A stretch of DNA of 42,337 bases, taken from an uncultured Geobacter sp. (GTDB lineage Bacteria; Desulfobacterota; Desulfuromonadia; Geobacterales; CAIOGM01). Location: contig CAIOGM010000087.1 in the NCBI GenBank assembly GCA_903857795.1, positions 1 through 42,337 of the forward strand, read 5' to 3'. Within the stretch, counting starts at the first letter, position 1. Each line of letters starts with the position of its first letter. Of the stretch, positions 30,769 through 36,921 are shown piece after piece. The notes under the pieces were generated by a model. That model worked only from the letters and a program-made list of their open reading frames with translations. It did no database searches and was not told the origin of the DNA. The translations under genes were made by a program, and so were the position numbers.

Positions 30769-31047
30769 CTTGCCATTTGTTGCGGAGGGTTAATACACGG
30801 TACAATAAAGTTCATCGCTACAACCTCCCAACGACGCAAATAGCCGTTCTCCATCTCGGAGAGCGGCTATTTTTTCAGTTTACGGTGGTGTTACGCAGTA
30901 ACGGGTGGAGCGTTCGGTGGCATCGACCATGATCACCACGAATCTCCTCCAGGTGGATCAGCGCCAGCAGGGTGATGCTTACCCTTGCCGATGGAGCTGC
31001 TGGTCGTGGTGGAGATGCAGGCGAGGATGGCGACGAGCGGGTGGTGA
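30769..31047. other. Non-coding scar after the element
   Basis: No credible gene. A small hairpin (AGCCGTTCTCCATCTCGGAG/AGCGGCT, around 30841-30868) followed by T is a possible terminator. The rest looks like decayed sequence leading into the degenerate repeat at 31048. Confidence 0.4.
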
Positions 31048-31231
31048 GCCTGGTGGAATAGTAGGTATTCCGGCCATTGGCATTGGTGATACCCACTAAA
31101 AAAGCGAAGGAGAGGACTTTCCCCGAGATGGGATACCGGAATCCCGGGAGAGGGTGCATTCAACCATTTGGTGATGTGCAATCTCCACAGCCTCACAGAT
31201 ACGGTGATTGGCGTGGTGAGGACATACCACG
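31048..31231. repeat. Degenerate ~190-bp repeat, copy A
   Basis: Direct, clearly related copy of 33864-34061. Shared words include TGGTGGAATAGT, CCCACTAAAAAAG, TTTCCCCGAGA, GGATACCGGAATCC, GAGGGTGCAT and an identical 26 bp at 31191-31216 and 34013-34038 (starting CCTCACAGATACGG). Short frames in both strands are not conserved between the copies, so it is more likely an old mobile or RNA-type repeat than a gene. Confidence 0.75.
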
Positions 31232-31291: not shown

Positions 31292-31481
31292 TGTTCGCAA
31301 TCCGTTTTATCTGGACGGCGAATCCGGAACCGACTGGAGACTCAATCCGGAAAATGGAAAAAATTGTCCAGTGAAAACCGGATTCTCTGTCCAGTCTAAA
31401 CCGGATTACCTGTCCAGCCAAAACCGGATTCGGTGTCCAGTCAATTCCGAACATGGTGTCCACTTTACTCCGGATTACGCA
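31292..31481. repeat. Head-to-head array of 23-bp repeats, likely collapsed IS ends
   Basis: Five plus-strand units start at 31365, 31388, 31411, 31434 and 31457, exactly 23 bp apart, each TGTCCA-n-ACCGGATT-like. Immediately to the left (31300-31350) the same pattern continues on the minus strand, with units CCGGATTGAGTCTCCAG and CCGGATTCGCCGTCCAG also 23 bp apart. The outer edges read TG (31292) and CA (31480-31481). Multiple inverted repeats at each end with TG...CA tips are typical of IS21-type elements, but no transposase gene is present, so this would be an internal-deletion relic or an end junction. The family name is inference. Confidence 0.7.
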
Positions 31482-31920
31482 GGCGCTGCCGGTCAGTGCC
31501 CAGATCTGATGAGTGAACCCGCAACGAGTCGGGACGATTTGTCCCGGTTGGTAATACCTCCCCAGGTTCAGGATGAGGTGCTAGTGATGCTCACATTTTG
31601 GGTATCGGTCCACTCCGACGAATCTCGCCTAGGATGGTGAACTTACCGTGATCTTCACCCGGCTGGAGTGGATTCACACCGCTCCAATACGTAAGCTGAA
31701 AATCGGCTCCTTGATGCAGGTTCCACCGCCTTCTGTGCTGTAATTATTTACACGAAATAATATCATTGCAATGTAAGCGCACCTTAACTATACTCGCCAC
31801 CAGCTTGTGCTTTTATTAATTCAGAAGCAAGAAAGGCTGTAATGGCTTAAACAACGCAGGTGAACCACAAAATTAAAGAATAACCCTCAGGGTGGACCCG
31901 AAAACCGAATGGAGTCAAAC
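31482..31920. other. Non-coding region upstream of the diguanylate cyclase gene
   Basis: No credible gene (a plus frame at 31371-31640 runs through the repeat array and lacks a ribosome-binding site). The part from about 31735 becomes AT-rich and should contain the promoter of the GGDEF gene; no box is certain. Confidence 0.4.
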
Positions 31921-33702
31921 ATGCCGAATCATTTGTCTTTTTTGAATTTCACTCGCAGCCTGATCGAAGCCAGCATTGACCCGCTGGTGACCATTGATAG
32001 CGATGGCAAATTCATCGACGTAAATTCCGCAACCGAAACGATGACGGGCGTGATGCGCGACAAACTGATCGGAACCGATTTTTCCTCTTACTTCACCGAT
32101 CCGGCAAAGGCGCGTTGCGGCTATCAGCGCGCCTTTGCCGAGGGGCATTTGTCCAATTGCTCTCTTGCCATCCGCCATACATCCGGTTCCATAATCGAAG
32201 TGCTTTGCAACGCTTCGATCTACTACGATGAATCGGGAGAAATCGCCGGGATATTCGCCTCGGCCCACGACATAACCGCCATGAAACAGACGGAAGAGCA
32301 GCTTCGAGCGGCTTCCCACTATGCCCGGAGCCTGATTGAAGCCAGCCAGGATCCGCTGGTGACCATCAGCGCCGACGGCACCATTATGGATGCCAATAAA
32401 GCCGCTGAAAAAGTGACCGGCGTTTCCCGCGAAAAGATTATCGGCAGCGACTTTAGTGACTACTTCACCGAACCGGAGAAGGCCCGCATCGGGTACAAAT
32501 TGGTCTTCTCCCAGGGATTTGTGACCGACTACCCGCTGGCCATCCGTCATACCTCGGGAACAGTCACGGAAGTTCTCTATAACGCCAGCGTCTACCAGGA
32601 CGAAAACGGCAAGGTGGCGGGGGTCTTTGCGGCGGCCCGGGATATCAGCAAGTTGCTACGCTCGCAGCAGGAGTTGGAAAAGAGTAATCGTGAGATCCTG
32701 ACCATGGGACAGATGACGGAATTTCTACAAAGCTGCCAATCGGCGGAGGAGACGTACCCCATTATCCAATCCACACTGGCTCAACTGTTTCCGGACAGTT
32801 CCGGTAGTTGCTTTATTCTCAATGATGCCAGCGAGTTCCTGGAAGAGGTGGCCAAGTGGGGCGACTCCTCCACCAGCGAACCCCTTTTCCATATGGAGGA
32901 TTGCTGGGCCTTACGGCGTGGGCACCTCCACTCCTTTGACACCTCACAATCCATCAATGTCCGCTGCAAGCATGTGGGGAGGGAAAATGCCTCGTATCTT
33001 TGCGTCCCTCTGCTGGCCCATGGCCATTGCCGGACCCTGGGAACGATCCATCTGACTCCCGTCACACCTCTGGAAGGTAAGAACGTCTTGGATCATCGAC
33101 GACAACTGGCGGTTTCCACCGCGGACAACATCAGTCTGGCTCTTACCAACCTGAAACTGCGCGAATCCCTGAAGACACTCTCCCTGCACGACCCTCTCAC
33201 CGGGCTGTTCAATCGGCGATTCATGGAAGAGACTATGGACCGCGAAATAATTCGGGCCACGCGCCTCAATCAGTCTCTGATCATCGCCATACTGGACATC
33301 GACCATTTCAAAAACTTCAATGACACCTACGGTCACAATGCAGGCGATCTGGCGCTCAAGCAGGTGGGCGCCATCTTGAAGGGGTTTCGCTCAGGCCTGG
33401 ATGTGTCGTGTCGGTTTGGCGGGGAGGAGTTCATTCTGATTCTGACGGACATTACGCTGGAGCAGGCTACGACCCGGCTGGAGAGCTTGAGGGAAGCCAT
33501 CGGCAAACTGAATCTCAGCGTCGGTTGCCAGAGCTTGCCGCGTATCACCATTTCCATGGGGGTCTCGCGCTTTCCCCCGCACGGCACCACAGCCACAGAG
33601 TTGATAAAGAGCGCCGACGAGGCGCTTTATCAGGCCAAGAAGAACGGTCGAAACCGGATGGAAATAGCCGGAGCCGAAGCAGTCACTGCAGTGGCGCTTT
33701 GA
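31921..33702 (+). CDS. PAS-PAS-GAF-GGDEF diguanylate cyclase
   Basis: 593 residues from the second ATG (31921), which has GGAG seven bases upstream; the ATG at 31909 overlaps that site. Two PAS domains of near-identical wording lie at about 8-125 and 135-250 (ARSLIEASQDPLVTISADGT, then GVSREKIIGSDFSDYFTEPE, and YPLAIRHTSGTVTEVLYNAS). A GAF-like domain follows (about 265-420), then GGDEF (about 430-585) with active-site RFGGEEF and DIDHFKNFNDTYGH. It should make cyclic di-GMP from GTP. The usual RxxD inhibitory site is not in register (SGLD precedes it), so product inhibition may be lost. The PAS pair is an internal duplication. No membrane helix: cytoplasmic sensor. Confidence 0.92.
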   Translation: MPNHLSFLNFTRSLIEASIDPLVTIDSDGKFIDVNSATETMTGVMRDKLIGTDFSSYFTDPAKARCGYQRAFAEGHLSNCSLAIRHTSGSIIEVLCNASIYYDESGEIAGIFASAHDITAMKQTEEQLRAASHYARSLIEASQDPLVTISADGTIMDANKAAEKVTGVSREKIIGSDFSDYFTEPEKARIGYKLVFSQGFVTDYPLAIRHTSGTVTEVLYNASVYQDENGKVAGVFAAARDISKLLRSQQELEKSNREILTMGQMTEFLQSCQSAEETYPIIQSTLAQLFPDSSGSCFILNDASEFLEEVAKWGDSSTSEPLFHMEDCWALRRGHLHSFDTSQSINVRCKHVGRENASYLCVPLLAHGHCRTLGTIHLTPVTPLEGKNVLDHRRQLAVSTADNISLALTNLKLRESLKTLSLHDPLTGLFNRRFMEETMDREIIRATRLNQSLIIAILDIDHFKNFNDTYGHNAGDLALKQVGAILKGFRSGLDVSCRFGGEEFILILTDITLEQATTRLESLREAIGKLNLSVGCQSLPRITISMGVSRFPPHGTTATELIKSADEALYQAKKNGRNRMEIAGAEAVTAVAL

Positions 33703-33863
33703 AAATGTGTCTTCTTCTGTTTTGCCATCTTCTTCCTTCCCCCCTATAAATCACAAGTCTTCTTCAGTATTTTATTCCTGATATCAATCAGTTTTTCCCA
33801 TAGTACGCCTTTATGTCTGATGATTGGCCCGGAGGTTTCGGGTCATGAAACGCATCAAGGTGG
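33703..33863. other. Non-coding gap after the diguanylate cyclase gene
   Basis: No gene or clear terminator seen. Pyrimidine-rich stretch followed by repeat copy B. Confidence 0.4.
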
Positions 33864-34061
33864 GTCTGGTGGAATAGTGGGTTTTCCAGCCATCGATGAC
33901 ACCCACTAAAAAAGTGGAGCGTGAGGAGGAGAGCTCTTTCCCCGAGAGAGGATACCGGAATCCGGGGGGAGGGTGCATCCACCCATTTGGTGGTGGTGCG
34001 CAATTTCCACGGCCTCACAGATACGGTGATTGGCGTGGGTAAAATGTTGAGGGCATACCAC
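33864..34061. repeat. Degenerate ~190-bp repeat, copy B
   Basis: Direct repeat partner of 31048-31231, about 75-80 percent alike by eye with small insertions. Together the copies flank the diguanylate cyclase gene with 2.6 kb between them. Confidence 0.75.
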
Positions 34062-34261
34062 AGCGTTGCAAAATGATTTCCCCATCCGCGAATGACCTGT
34101 TGATCTGGTCGATCAGCGTCCTTGCCCTTCAAAGCTCTAGCGCATATCGACCGCGTGGTCATACAGTAAAATTCCGAGTGGCAGTAGGGCTGAAGCTGTT
34201 CAGTTCAACAGGAGTTTATGTATCGGCTACGCGATGCGTAAACTCTTAAAGTGTTAATGAT

Positions 34262-34296
34262 GTAAATAATCCCGACACGATGTCGGAATTATTTAC
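34262..34296. other. 16-bp hairpin upstream of the riboswitch
   Basis: 34262-34277 (GTAAATAATCCCGACA) pairs with 34281-34296 except for one mismatch, around a 3-nt loop. It is AT-rich on the flanks and symmetrical, so it may terminate transcription in either direction and insulate the region to the left from the riboswitch transcript. Confidence 0.6.
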
Positions 34297-34377
34297 AGTT
34301 ATGTCTTCAATGTTGCGAAAATATGACAATAACTCACTGACTTAATGAGACCACCGCGTGGCGTACTTTTTGCATAC

Positions 34378-34454
34378 AGTACGTGACGAAAGCCAAACCA
34401 CCCGTGAGGGTGGGACGGAAAACCTAGGGTCTTGCCGAGACAGCCGGGCTGCCA
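34378..34454 (+). ncRNA. GEMM-I-type cyclic dinucleotide riboswitch aptamer
   Basis: The order GCCAAACCACCC, a GTGA (GNRA) tetraloop (34404-34407) on a CCACCC/GGGTGG stem, GGGACGGAAAACCTAGG, a GTCT/AGAC-closed hairpin and GCCGGGCTGCC matches the GEMM-I aptamer and is very like those I know from Geobacter, some of which bind 3',3'-cGAMP instead of c-di-GMP. The specificity base cannot be fixed with certainty by eye. It lies about 115 bp before a chemoreceptor gene and is followed by a terminator, as expected of a transcriptional switch. Confidence 0.85.
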
Positions 34455-34491
34455 AAGGATTGAAGTTCCTTCGATCAGGGTCCCGGTTTTT
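34444..34491 (+). terminator. Riboswitch-controlled terminator
   Basis: An outer stem CCGGG (34444-34448)/CCCGG (34482-34486) and an inner stem GATTGAAG/CTTCGATC (34458-34465/34469-34476) are followed by five T (34487-34491). The 5' arm is also the 3' strand of the aptamer (GCCGGGCTGCC), so ligand binding should block the terminator: an ON switch. Confidence 0.7.
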
Positions 34492-34569: not shown

Positions 34570-36921
34570 ATGCAGAACTTGAAGATCGGCGTAAAACTGG
34601 CTTGCGGATTCCTGGTCGTGGCGATTTTCGCCGCCGTCGTTGGCGGGGTCGGGATTCTCAATATCAAAACAATCGACAAGGCAGACACCAAGCTCTACGA
34701 GAAGATCACGGTTCCCCTCGCCGAAATTGGGCAACTCTCCACCTCCTTCCACCGGATGCGCTGCGACGTAATAAGGATGCTCATCGCCAGAGATCAGGCC
34801 GAACTGAAGGACCTTGAGAGTAAGGGCAATGAGCGCGACAAGGAAATCGACGTGTTGCTCGTCAAAATCGAGAAAACCCTTTTGACCGATGCCGGCCGGA
34901 AGCAGTTCCAAGAGATGAAGCGGAGCTACGCCAGGTATGATGCCGCGGAGAAGAAGTACCTCGCACTTGTCATGGTCGGCAAACGGGCCGAAGCTGAGGC
35001 CATCCTGAATGGAGAGATGGAGGCCGCTCGCAAGGAAGCCCAAAAAGATATCGCAACCATCATGGAGACCAAGGTCCTGCTGGCAAAAGAGACCTCGGAC
35101 AGTAACACCGCCATGGCGGACCACTCCACTATTTTGATGTCCGGGTTCACGCTGGCGGCCATCCTGTTCGGTCTCGGCATCGGCTGGATCATCACCCGGG
35201 GAATCAAGCGGCAACTGGGGGGAGAGCCGGCTTTTGTGGCCGAGTTGGCCGGCAAGGTGGCGATAGGCGATCTCTCTACCCGGATTGATACTGCAGGCAA
35301 GGACCCCAACAGTATCATCATGGCCATGTACAGGATGTCAGAGGCGATCAAGTCCCTGGTGGCCGATGCCGGACTGCTCTCCCAGGCAGCGGTGGCGGGC
35401 CAACTGGCCACCCGGGCCGATGCCGACAAGCATCAGGGAGATTACCGACAGATTGTTGTCGGTGTCAACGAAACCCTGGATGCCGTCATCGGCCCACTCA
35501 ATGTCGCGGCCCGCTATGTGGACCGGATCTCCAAGGGCGACATCCCGCCGAGGATTTCAGAATCATACAATGGTGACTTCAATAACATAAAGAATAACCT
35601 CAACACCTGCATCGATGCAGTCAGCGCCATGGTAGCTGACGCCAACCTTCTGGTTCAGGCCGCCGTGGACGGCAAGCTATCAACCCGGGCCGACGCCGGC
35701 AAACACCAGGGGGACTTTCAGAAGATTGTAGCAGGAGTTAATCAGACCCTTGACGCGGTCATCGGCCCGTTGAACGTGGCCGCCGAATACGTGGACCGAA
35801 TCTCCAAGGGTGATATGCCCCCCATTATCAGCGACACCTACCACGGCGACTTCAACGAGGTAAAAAACAACCTCAACGTCCTAATCGAAGCCTTGAACCG
35901 TATCACCGCCGGCGCCAAGGAGGTGGCCAGCGGCAACCTGATGGTGGATCTCAAGGAACGCTCCATCAATGACGAGCTCATGCACTCTCTCATCGCCATG
36001 GTCCGGCAGCTCACCTCCGTTGTGAGCGAGGTGAAGAGTGCCGCAGACAACGTGGCAGCCGGTTCTCTGGAGATGAGTTCCGGATCGGAGAATATGTCTC
36101 ACGGGGCTTCGGAGCAGGCTGCTGCTGCCGAACAGGCCTCTTCCAGCATGGAGCAGATGACCTCCAACATCCGGCAGAACGCCGACAACGCCCAACAGAC
36201 CAACAAAATCAGCAATAAGGCTGCGGAAGACGCCGCAAGCGGCGGCGCGGCGGTGGCGGAGACTGTGGCGGCCATGAGGGAGATCGCGGGGAAGATCACC
36301 ATCATTGAGGAGATTGCCCGGCAAACAAATATGCTGGCGTTGAACGCGGCCATCGAGGCGGCCCGAGCCGGGGAGCACGGCAAGGGGTTTGCAGTGGTTG
36401 CCTCGGAGGTGCGCAAGCTGGCCGAGCGGAGCCAGGCTGCGGCCCGGGAGATCTCCGGACTCTCGGCGTCCAGCGTGGAGGTTGCCGAACGGGCCGGAGA
36501 GATGCTGACCAAGATCGTGCCGGACATCCAGAAAACTGCGGAGCTGGTGCAGGAGATAAACGCTGCCAGCCGGGAACAGGACAGCGGAGCCGAACAGATC
36601 AACAAGGCGATCCAGCAGCTGGATCAGGTGATCCAGCAGAACGCTTCGGCCGCCGAAGAGATGGCGTCAACAGCTGAAGAGCTCTCCTCCCAGGCGGAGC
36701 AACTTCAGGCCACGGTGGCCTTCTTCCGGATTGACGACAGCGGGCGGAGAGCCTTGCCGGCCCGGCGGGTGTCGCGGGCCGCGGCGAAACCGGCCCAACG
36801 GCCTGCTCCCACCGCCATAAAGTCTATGCCGATCAGTTACGGCGGAGTGAAGAAGGCGGTAGGGCACGACCTGGTTATGGAGAGCGGCGATCACCTGGAC
36901 AACAGCTTCGAAAAGTTCTGA
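34570..36921 (+). CDS. Methyl-accepting chemotaxis protein with duplicated HAMP-like modules
   Basis: 783 residues; GGAGAGG precedes the ATG. A first membrane helix (about 9-30) is followed by a periplasmic four-helix-bundle sensor (4HB_MCP, about 32-185), a second helix (about 193-213), and a HAMP domain. Two nearly identical 91-residue modules then start at residues 264 and 355 ([20 protein letters not shown], ending [17 protein letters not shown]), as in poly-HAMP receptors. The signalling domain follows, with hairpin tip [20 protein letters not shown]. The C-terminus is an extended tail ending DNSFEKF, with no NWETF-like tether. Its leader carries the GEMM-I switch, so a cyclic dinucleotide controls its expression. 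Ligand unknown. Confidence 0.93.

Follow-up and report, generated by a model that had tools for sequence, protein, structure and literature searches.

The gene at 34570-36921 of the forward strand, which encodes a methyl-accepting chemotaxis protein (MCP), lies downstream of a short RNA element. We analyzed the element within a stretch of 42,337 nucleotides from an uncultured Geobacter sp. (the window, to which all plain coordinates refer), and we hold with good confidence that the MCP leader is a GEMM-I transcriptional ON riboswitch most likely sensing c-di-GMP.

Aptamer, terminator and downstream gene

An Rfam cmscan of the whole 42-kb window placed a GEMM-I/c-di-GMP-I aptamer at 34382-34456 (+), matching the full RF01051 model (positions 1-87) with 54.8 bits (E value 3.9e-8) against a gathering score of 35, and the sole other Rfam match was one tRNA. 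The aptamer core runs in the order GAAAGCCAAACC, P2, GGGACGGAAAACC and, last, P3, whose 3' strand is GACAGCCGGGCUGCC. In the Rfam alignment and in folding, P2 (34398-34413, +) consists of six pairs with a GUGA tetraloop. P1 is weak, with three scattered pairs in the RF03167 alignment, and P3 has an A-C mismatch at its base. Loss of P1 abolishes ligand binding in Vc2 (PMC9262584); Cd1, however, has no detectable P1. Overall the element is well formed and falls within a known riboswitch family as an essentially ordinary case.

The strand AGCCGGGCUGCC (34442-34453, +; segments AGCCGGG, CU and GCC) forms P3 in the aptamer together with its ligand-pairing end. In an alternative fold the same strand pairs with a strand ending in CCCGG (34482-34486), which is followed by TTTTT (34487-34491), forming an intrinsic terminator at 34442-34491 (+) with a minimum free energy of -22.1 kcal/mol, compared to -13.7 ± 2.8 kcal/mol for dinucleotide shuffles (z = -2.98). 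The z-score of the whole leader is weak (-1.6) because U-tract pairing is also part of that fold. The ligand-free leader folds into the terminator with -40.6 kcal/mol, whereas constraining it to form P1b and P2 and to leave the terminator 3' arm unpaired gives at best -29.6 kcal/mol. By folding, the terminator and the ligand-bound aptamer are mutually exclusive via 34442-34453, and the predicted layout of the leader is that of a transcriptional ON switch in which ligand binding should favor readthrough. The equivalent of C92 (34452), a ligand-pairing base, is buried within the predicted terminator, and the ligand-pairing C of the Geobacter pilM switch is likewise buried (PMC9262584).

The MCP has 783 residues, with the Pfam domains 4HB_MCP_1, HAMP/HAMP_2 and MCPsignal, and a GGAGAGG ribosome site lies ahead of its reading frame (34570-36921, +); from these domains it is predicted to be a membrane-type chemoreceptor. 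An earlier note, made from the letters alone, had described a GEMM-I riboswitch at 34378-34491 in a Geobacter-like setting, with an aptamer 3' strand that doubles as the terminator 5' arm, an ON layout and a chemoreceptor as its target. The class agrees with the covariance score, the coordinates are correct to within a few bases, and the setting, the shared strand, the layout and the target are all supported by the present data.

In the mechanism that we propose, AGCCGGGCUGCC is contested between the bound aptamer fold and the terminator. Without ligand it would pair with the downstream strand ending in CCCGG to form the terminator before TTTTT, and therefore the transcript would stop near 34491. 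When c-di-GMP is present, G20 (34392) and C92 (34452) would pair with its two guanines and A47 would stack between them, the aptamer would keep 34442-34453 and RNA polymerase would continue into the MCP gene, so that high c-di-GMP would lead to more of this chemoreceptor. Ligand binding, its selectivity, the in vivo direction of control and any role in physiology are what we infer here.

Specificity base and the 22-45 pair

The earlier note considered the ligand impossible to settle by eye, given that the specificity base depended on how the segment before AAACC is aligned, and asked for position 20 to be checked by alignment. That position resolves to G at 34392 (+), in an ungapped register in both the RF01051 and RF03167 alignments, and the base can be assigned because no gap separates position 20 from the AAACC anchor. 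Counting back from AAACC gives C22, C21 and G20, and counting on from GGGAC gives G45, G46 and A47. In the Rfam structure, C21 and C22 (34393-34394, +) pair with G46 and G45 (34418 and 34417), and the base listing puts A47, which stacks between the two ligand bases, at 34419 (+), where RF03167 has a G. This numbering follows the Vc2 crystal structure. The ligand pocket thus holds the canonical c-di-GMP set of G20, A47 and C92 (34392, 34419 and 34452).

In GEMM-I aptamers, G at position 20 goes with c-di-GMP and A with cGAMP, the Geobacter cGAMP switches have A20, and an A20G mutation confers c-di-GMP selectivity on the GEMM-Ib aptamer of Gmet_0970 (PMC6456294). Selectivity conferred by G20 is not absolute since one OmcST switch binds both ligands (PMC6456294).

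We surveyed 141 genomes of the order (Geobacterales-like) for the pair adjoining these bases. The A20 pattern had 756 matches in 121 genomes, and only 10 of the 756 carried a Watson-Crick 22-45 pair (10 C22-G45 and none U22-A45); the remaining A20 matches were counted as U-G wobbles; this pattern is looser, and a few of its matches are chance occurrences. Among the 90 G20 matches of canonical length, the pair was Watson-Crick in 77 (66 C-G and 11 U-A) and U-G in 13. The window, with C22-G45, shows the commonest G20 form. Fisher's test of pair 22-45 against base 20 gives a vanishing p-value, which overstates the support since the sequences are related and is not to be taken literally. That the pair alternates between C-G and U-A across the order supports the register. 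One U22-A45 G20 element (L015/L200, G001:C480) precedes a short ORF that is PilZ-like by eye.

These counts suggest pair 22-45 as a possible second marker by which Geobacterales GEMM-I RNAs could be assigned a likely ligand. The marker was not found in the literature searched, a search that left out the key 2015 papers, and it may already be known. Directly established here are the aptamer match, the strand overlap, the predicted folds, the gene and base identities and the covariation of pair 22-45 with the specificity base.

Across GTDB, the same G20 form was found in Methylomonas, sulfate reducers, Sulfurovum, Nitrospirae, Vibrio and others, the complete aptamer not being verified for every match; the P3 strand was present in 71 of 117 such matches. 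As this form occurs in many groups, it is not special to Geobacter.

Known systems and alternative readings

The element resembles the Vc2-type c-di-GMP-I aptamers (RF01051) in its full-length match over the cutoff, in G20, A47 and C92 and in a P2 with a GNRA loop, but its 21-46 pair is C-G instead of the G-C of the Vc2 type and its P1 is weak. Moreover, Vc2 is reported to be a translational OFF switch (PMC9262584), whereas the element here has a transcriptional terminator platform. With the Geobacter GEMM-Ib cGAMP switches (Gmet_0970, GSU1761 and pilM) it shares C21-G46, a P3 with GAGACAGCCGGG and an ON switch whose terminator overlaps the aptamer, but differs from them in G20 with C22-G45 as opposed to A20 with a U-G wobble, and in having an MCP as target. 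ON switches on such platforms are known in Geobacter (PMC6456294, PMC9262584), and c-di-GMP-I switches have been found ahead of MCP genes in the Bacillus cereus group (Bc1/mcpE; PMC11218506) and in B. anthracis (PMC6366702). Bc1 likewise has terminators on its platform and is reported to turn on transcription, although its host is distant, its platform is long with two terminators and its aptamer starts from +48 (PMC11218506). There is thus precedent for an ON switch of the c-di-GMP-I class ahead of an MCP gene, and the element described here would be a further case.

The likeness to the GEMM-Ib switches raises the alternative that the same ON switch senses 3',3'-cGAMP, or both ligands about equally, as part of a cGAMP regulon of this genome. 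The P3 and platform of the element do resemble the A20 elements of its own genome, which holds three of them together with a Hypr-like GGDEF protein, C21-G46 is common to it and the GEMM-Ib elements, and binding of both ligands is on record for one Geobacter switch (PMC6456294). Base 20, however, is G at 34392 and not A, and pair 22-45 is C-G, of the G20 type, and not the U22-G45 wobble that our survey associates with GEMM-Ib. We consider cGAMP sensing unlikely on these grounds, and the hint in the earlier note of cGAMP sensing with a link to extracellular electron transfer is not sustained.

It is also quite improbable that the aptamer has decayed and left a constitutive terminator on an element that no longer responds. 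The weak P1, the basal A-C mismatch of P3, a score of 54.8 bits compared to 77.9 bits for another element of the same genome and a U tract of just five would fit such decay; yet all three ligand-contact bases are retained, P2 keeps six pairs and its GNRA loop, and the terminator is significant against shuffles.

Membership in the variant class c-di-GMP-I-GGC (RF03167), a model that fits the overall aptamer at a marginally higher score than RF01051 (55.1 versus 54.8 bits) and whose cutoff sister elements exceed, was rejected as very unlikely, since 55.1 bits does not reach the gathering score of 59 and the base at 34419 is A47 where the consensus has G. We read GGC as bases 20, 47 and 92, which is our own interpretation of the model, and the class is not known to have an assigned ligand. 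For some of the GEMM-I elements RF03167 is the better-scoring model, and seven Geobacterales G20/A47 elements (L009, L012, L015, L121, L133, L179 and L195) lie above the RF03167 cutoff though they lack G47, so this model draws no sharp line around the variant.

Genome setting and promoter region

The genome has eight GEMM-I matches including the present element: three are of the A20 cGAMP type (L005, L006 and L007), one is a canonical G20-G21 element (L001) and three are divergent (L003, L004 and L008, on G000:C2, C140 and C73). The divergent elements have GGCACAGC or GGCACCGC in place of GGCAAACC, and a direct scan nevertheless assigns L003 to RF01051. Of 17 GGDEF matches, 13 have a readable motif, 12 with GHxxGD and one with GHRIGS and GGDEY. 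The latter (L364, G000:C140:20420-20893) bears a Hypr-like mark and is a candidate cGAMP synthase; in GacA, Ser at the Hypr position is linked to cGAMP synthesis. With A20 elements and a Hypr-like GGDEF protein beside G20 elements and other GGDEF proteins, signaling by both c-di-GMP and cGAMP is plausible in this cell. Sensing of c-di-GMP by the leader would put the MCP in the c-di-GMP and not the cGAMP regulon, despite the A20 elements elsewhere in the genome.

A sister element in G001, a genome of the same genus, is 88% identical over 68 bases, has the same platform and lies before a large HAMP-array MCP, which is 75% identical to the window MCP at the signaling end and 45% at the sensor end. 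Among the sampled G20 and A20 elements, this sister is the only one besides the window that precedes an MCP related to the window's. No GEMM element was found upstream of the closest MCP homologues (G003:C316, 71% identical, G001:C532 and G002:C23) or the paralogue G000:C117, the lone AAACC in G003 falling in coding sequence. Nor did an MCP domain follow any of the 117 same-type GTDB elements, about 65 to 77 of which had enough downstream sequence, in a scan that recovered the window as positive control. A conserved MCP linkage was rejected on both counts, and the link between element and MCP looks recent and local.

Upstream of the aptamer, TGGCGTACTTTTTGCA (34359-34374, +) fits the sigma-54 -24/-12 spacing as TGGC-N7-TTGCA. 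It is the sole full match in the window, against 0.36 expected on both strands, and was picked out after the fact. Sigma-54 promoters carry GG-N10-GC at -24/-12 and work with an enhancer-binding protein. In Geobacter, several che, mcp and flagellar operons have predicted sites of this kind ahead of them (PMC2577667, PMC2725144). A sigma-54 promoter at 34359-34374 is suggestive only. Its start would fall near 34385, the aptamer 5' end, and would leave almost no P1. The sister leader in G001 lacks such an element. General sigma-54 control of this leader type was rejected, as 13 of 133 leaders score at least 7 compared to 5.6 by chance; many leaders of this type have sigma-70-like boxes. A palindrome at 34261-34297 (17-bp arms, 94% complementary, with a 3-nt loop), found by repeat search and also flagged as terminator-like, lies ∼106 bases upstream of the putative sigma-54 start; an activator site and a terminator are both conceivable roles for it.

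We regard as tentative, and on balance doubtful, the fuller picture of a two-input chemoreceptor gate in which a sigma-54 promoter is joined to a c-di-GMP ON switch starting almost at +1, with the aptamer in a Geobacterales G20 branch where pair 22-45 changed with ligand choice. If it were true, these cells would operate both a cGAMP and a c-di-GMP regulon using RNAs that are almost identical.

Elsewhere in the window, a diverged duplicate (31043-31216 and 33859-34038, 83-92% identical in blocks) flanks a PAS-GGDEF gene (31909-33702) on both sides, and a five-unit array of 23-bp direct repeats, starting TGTCCA, occupies 31365-31479.
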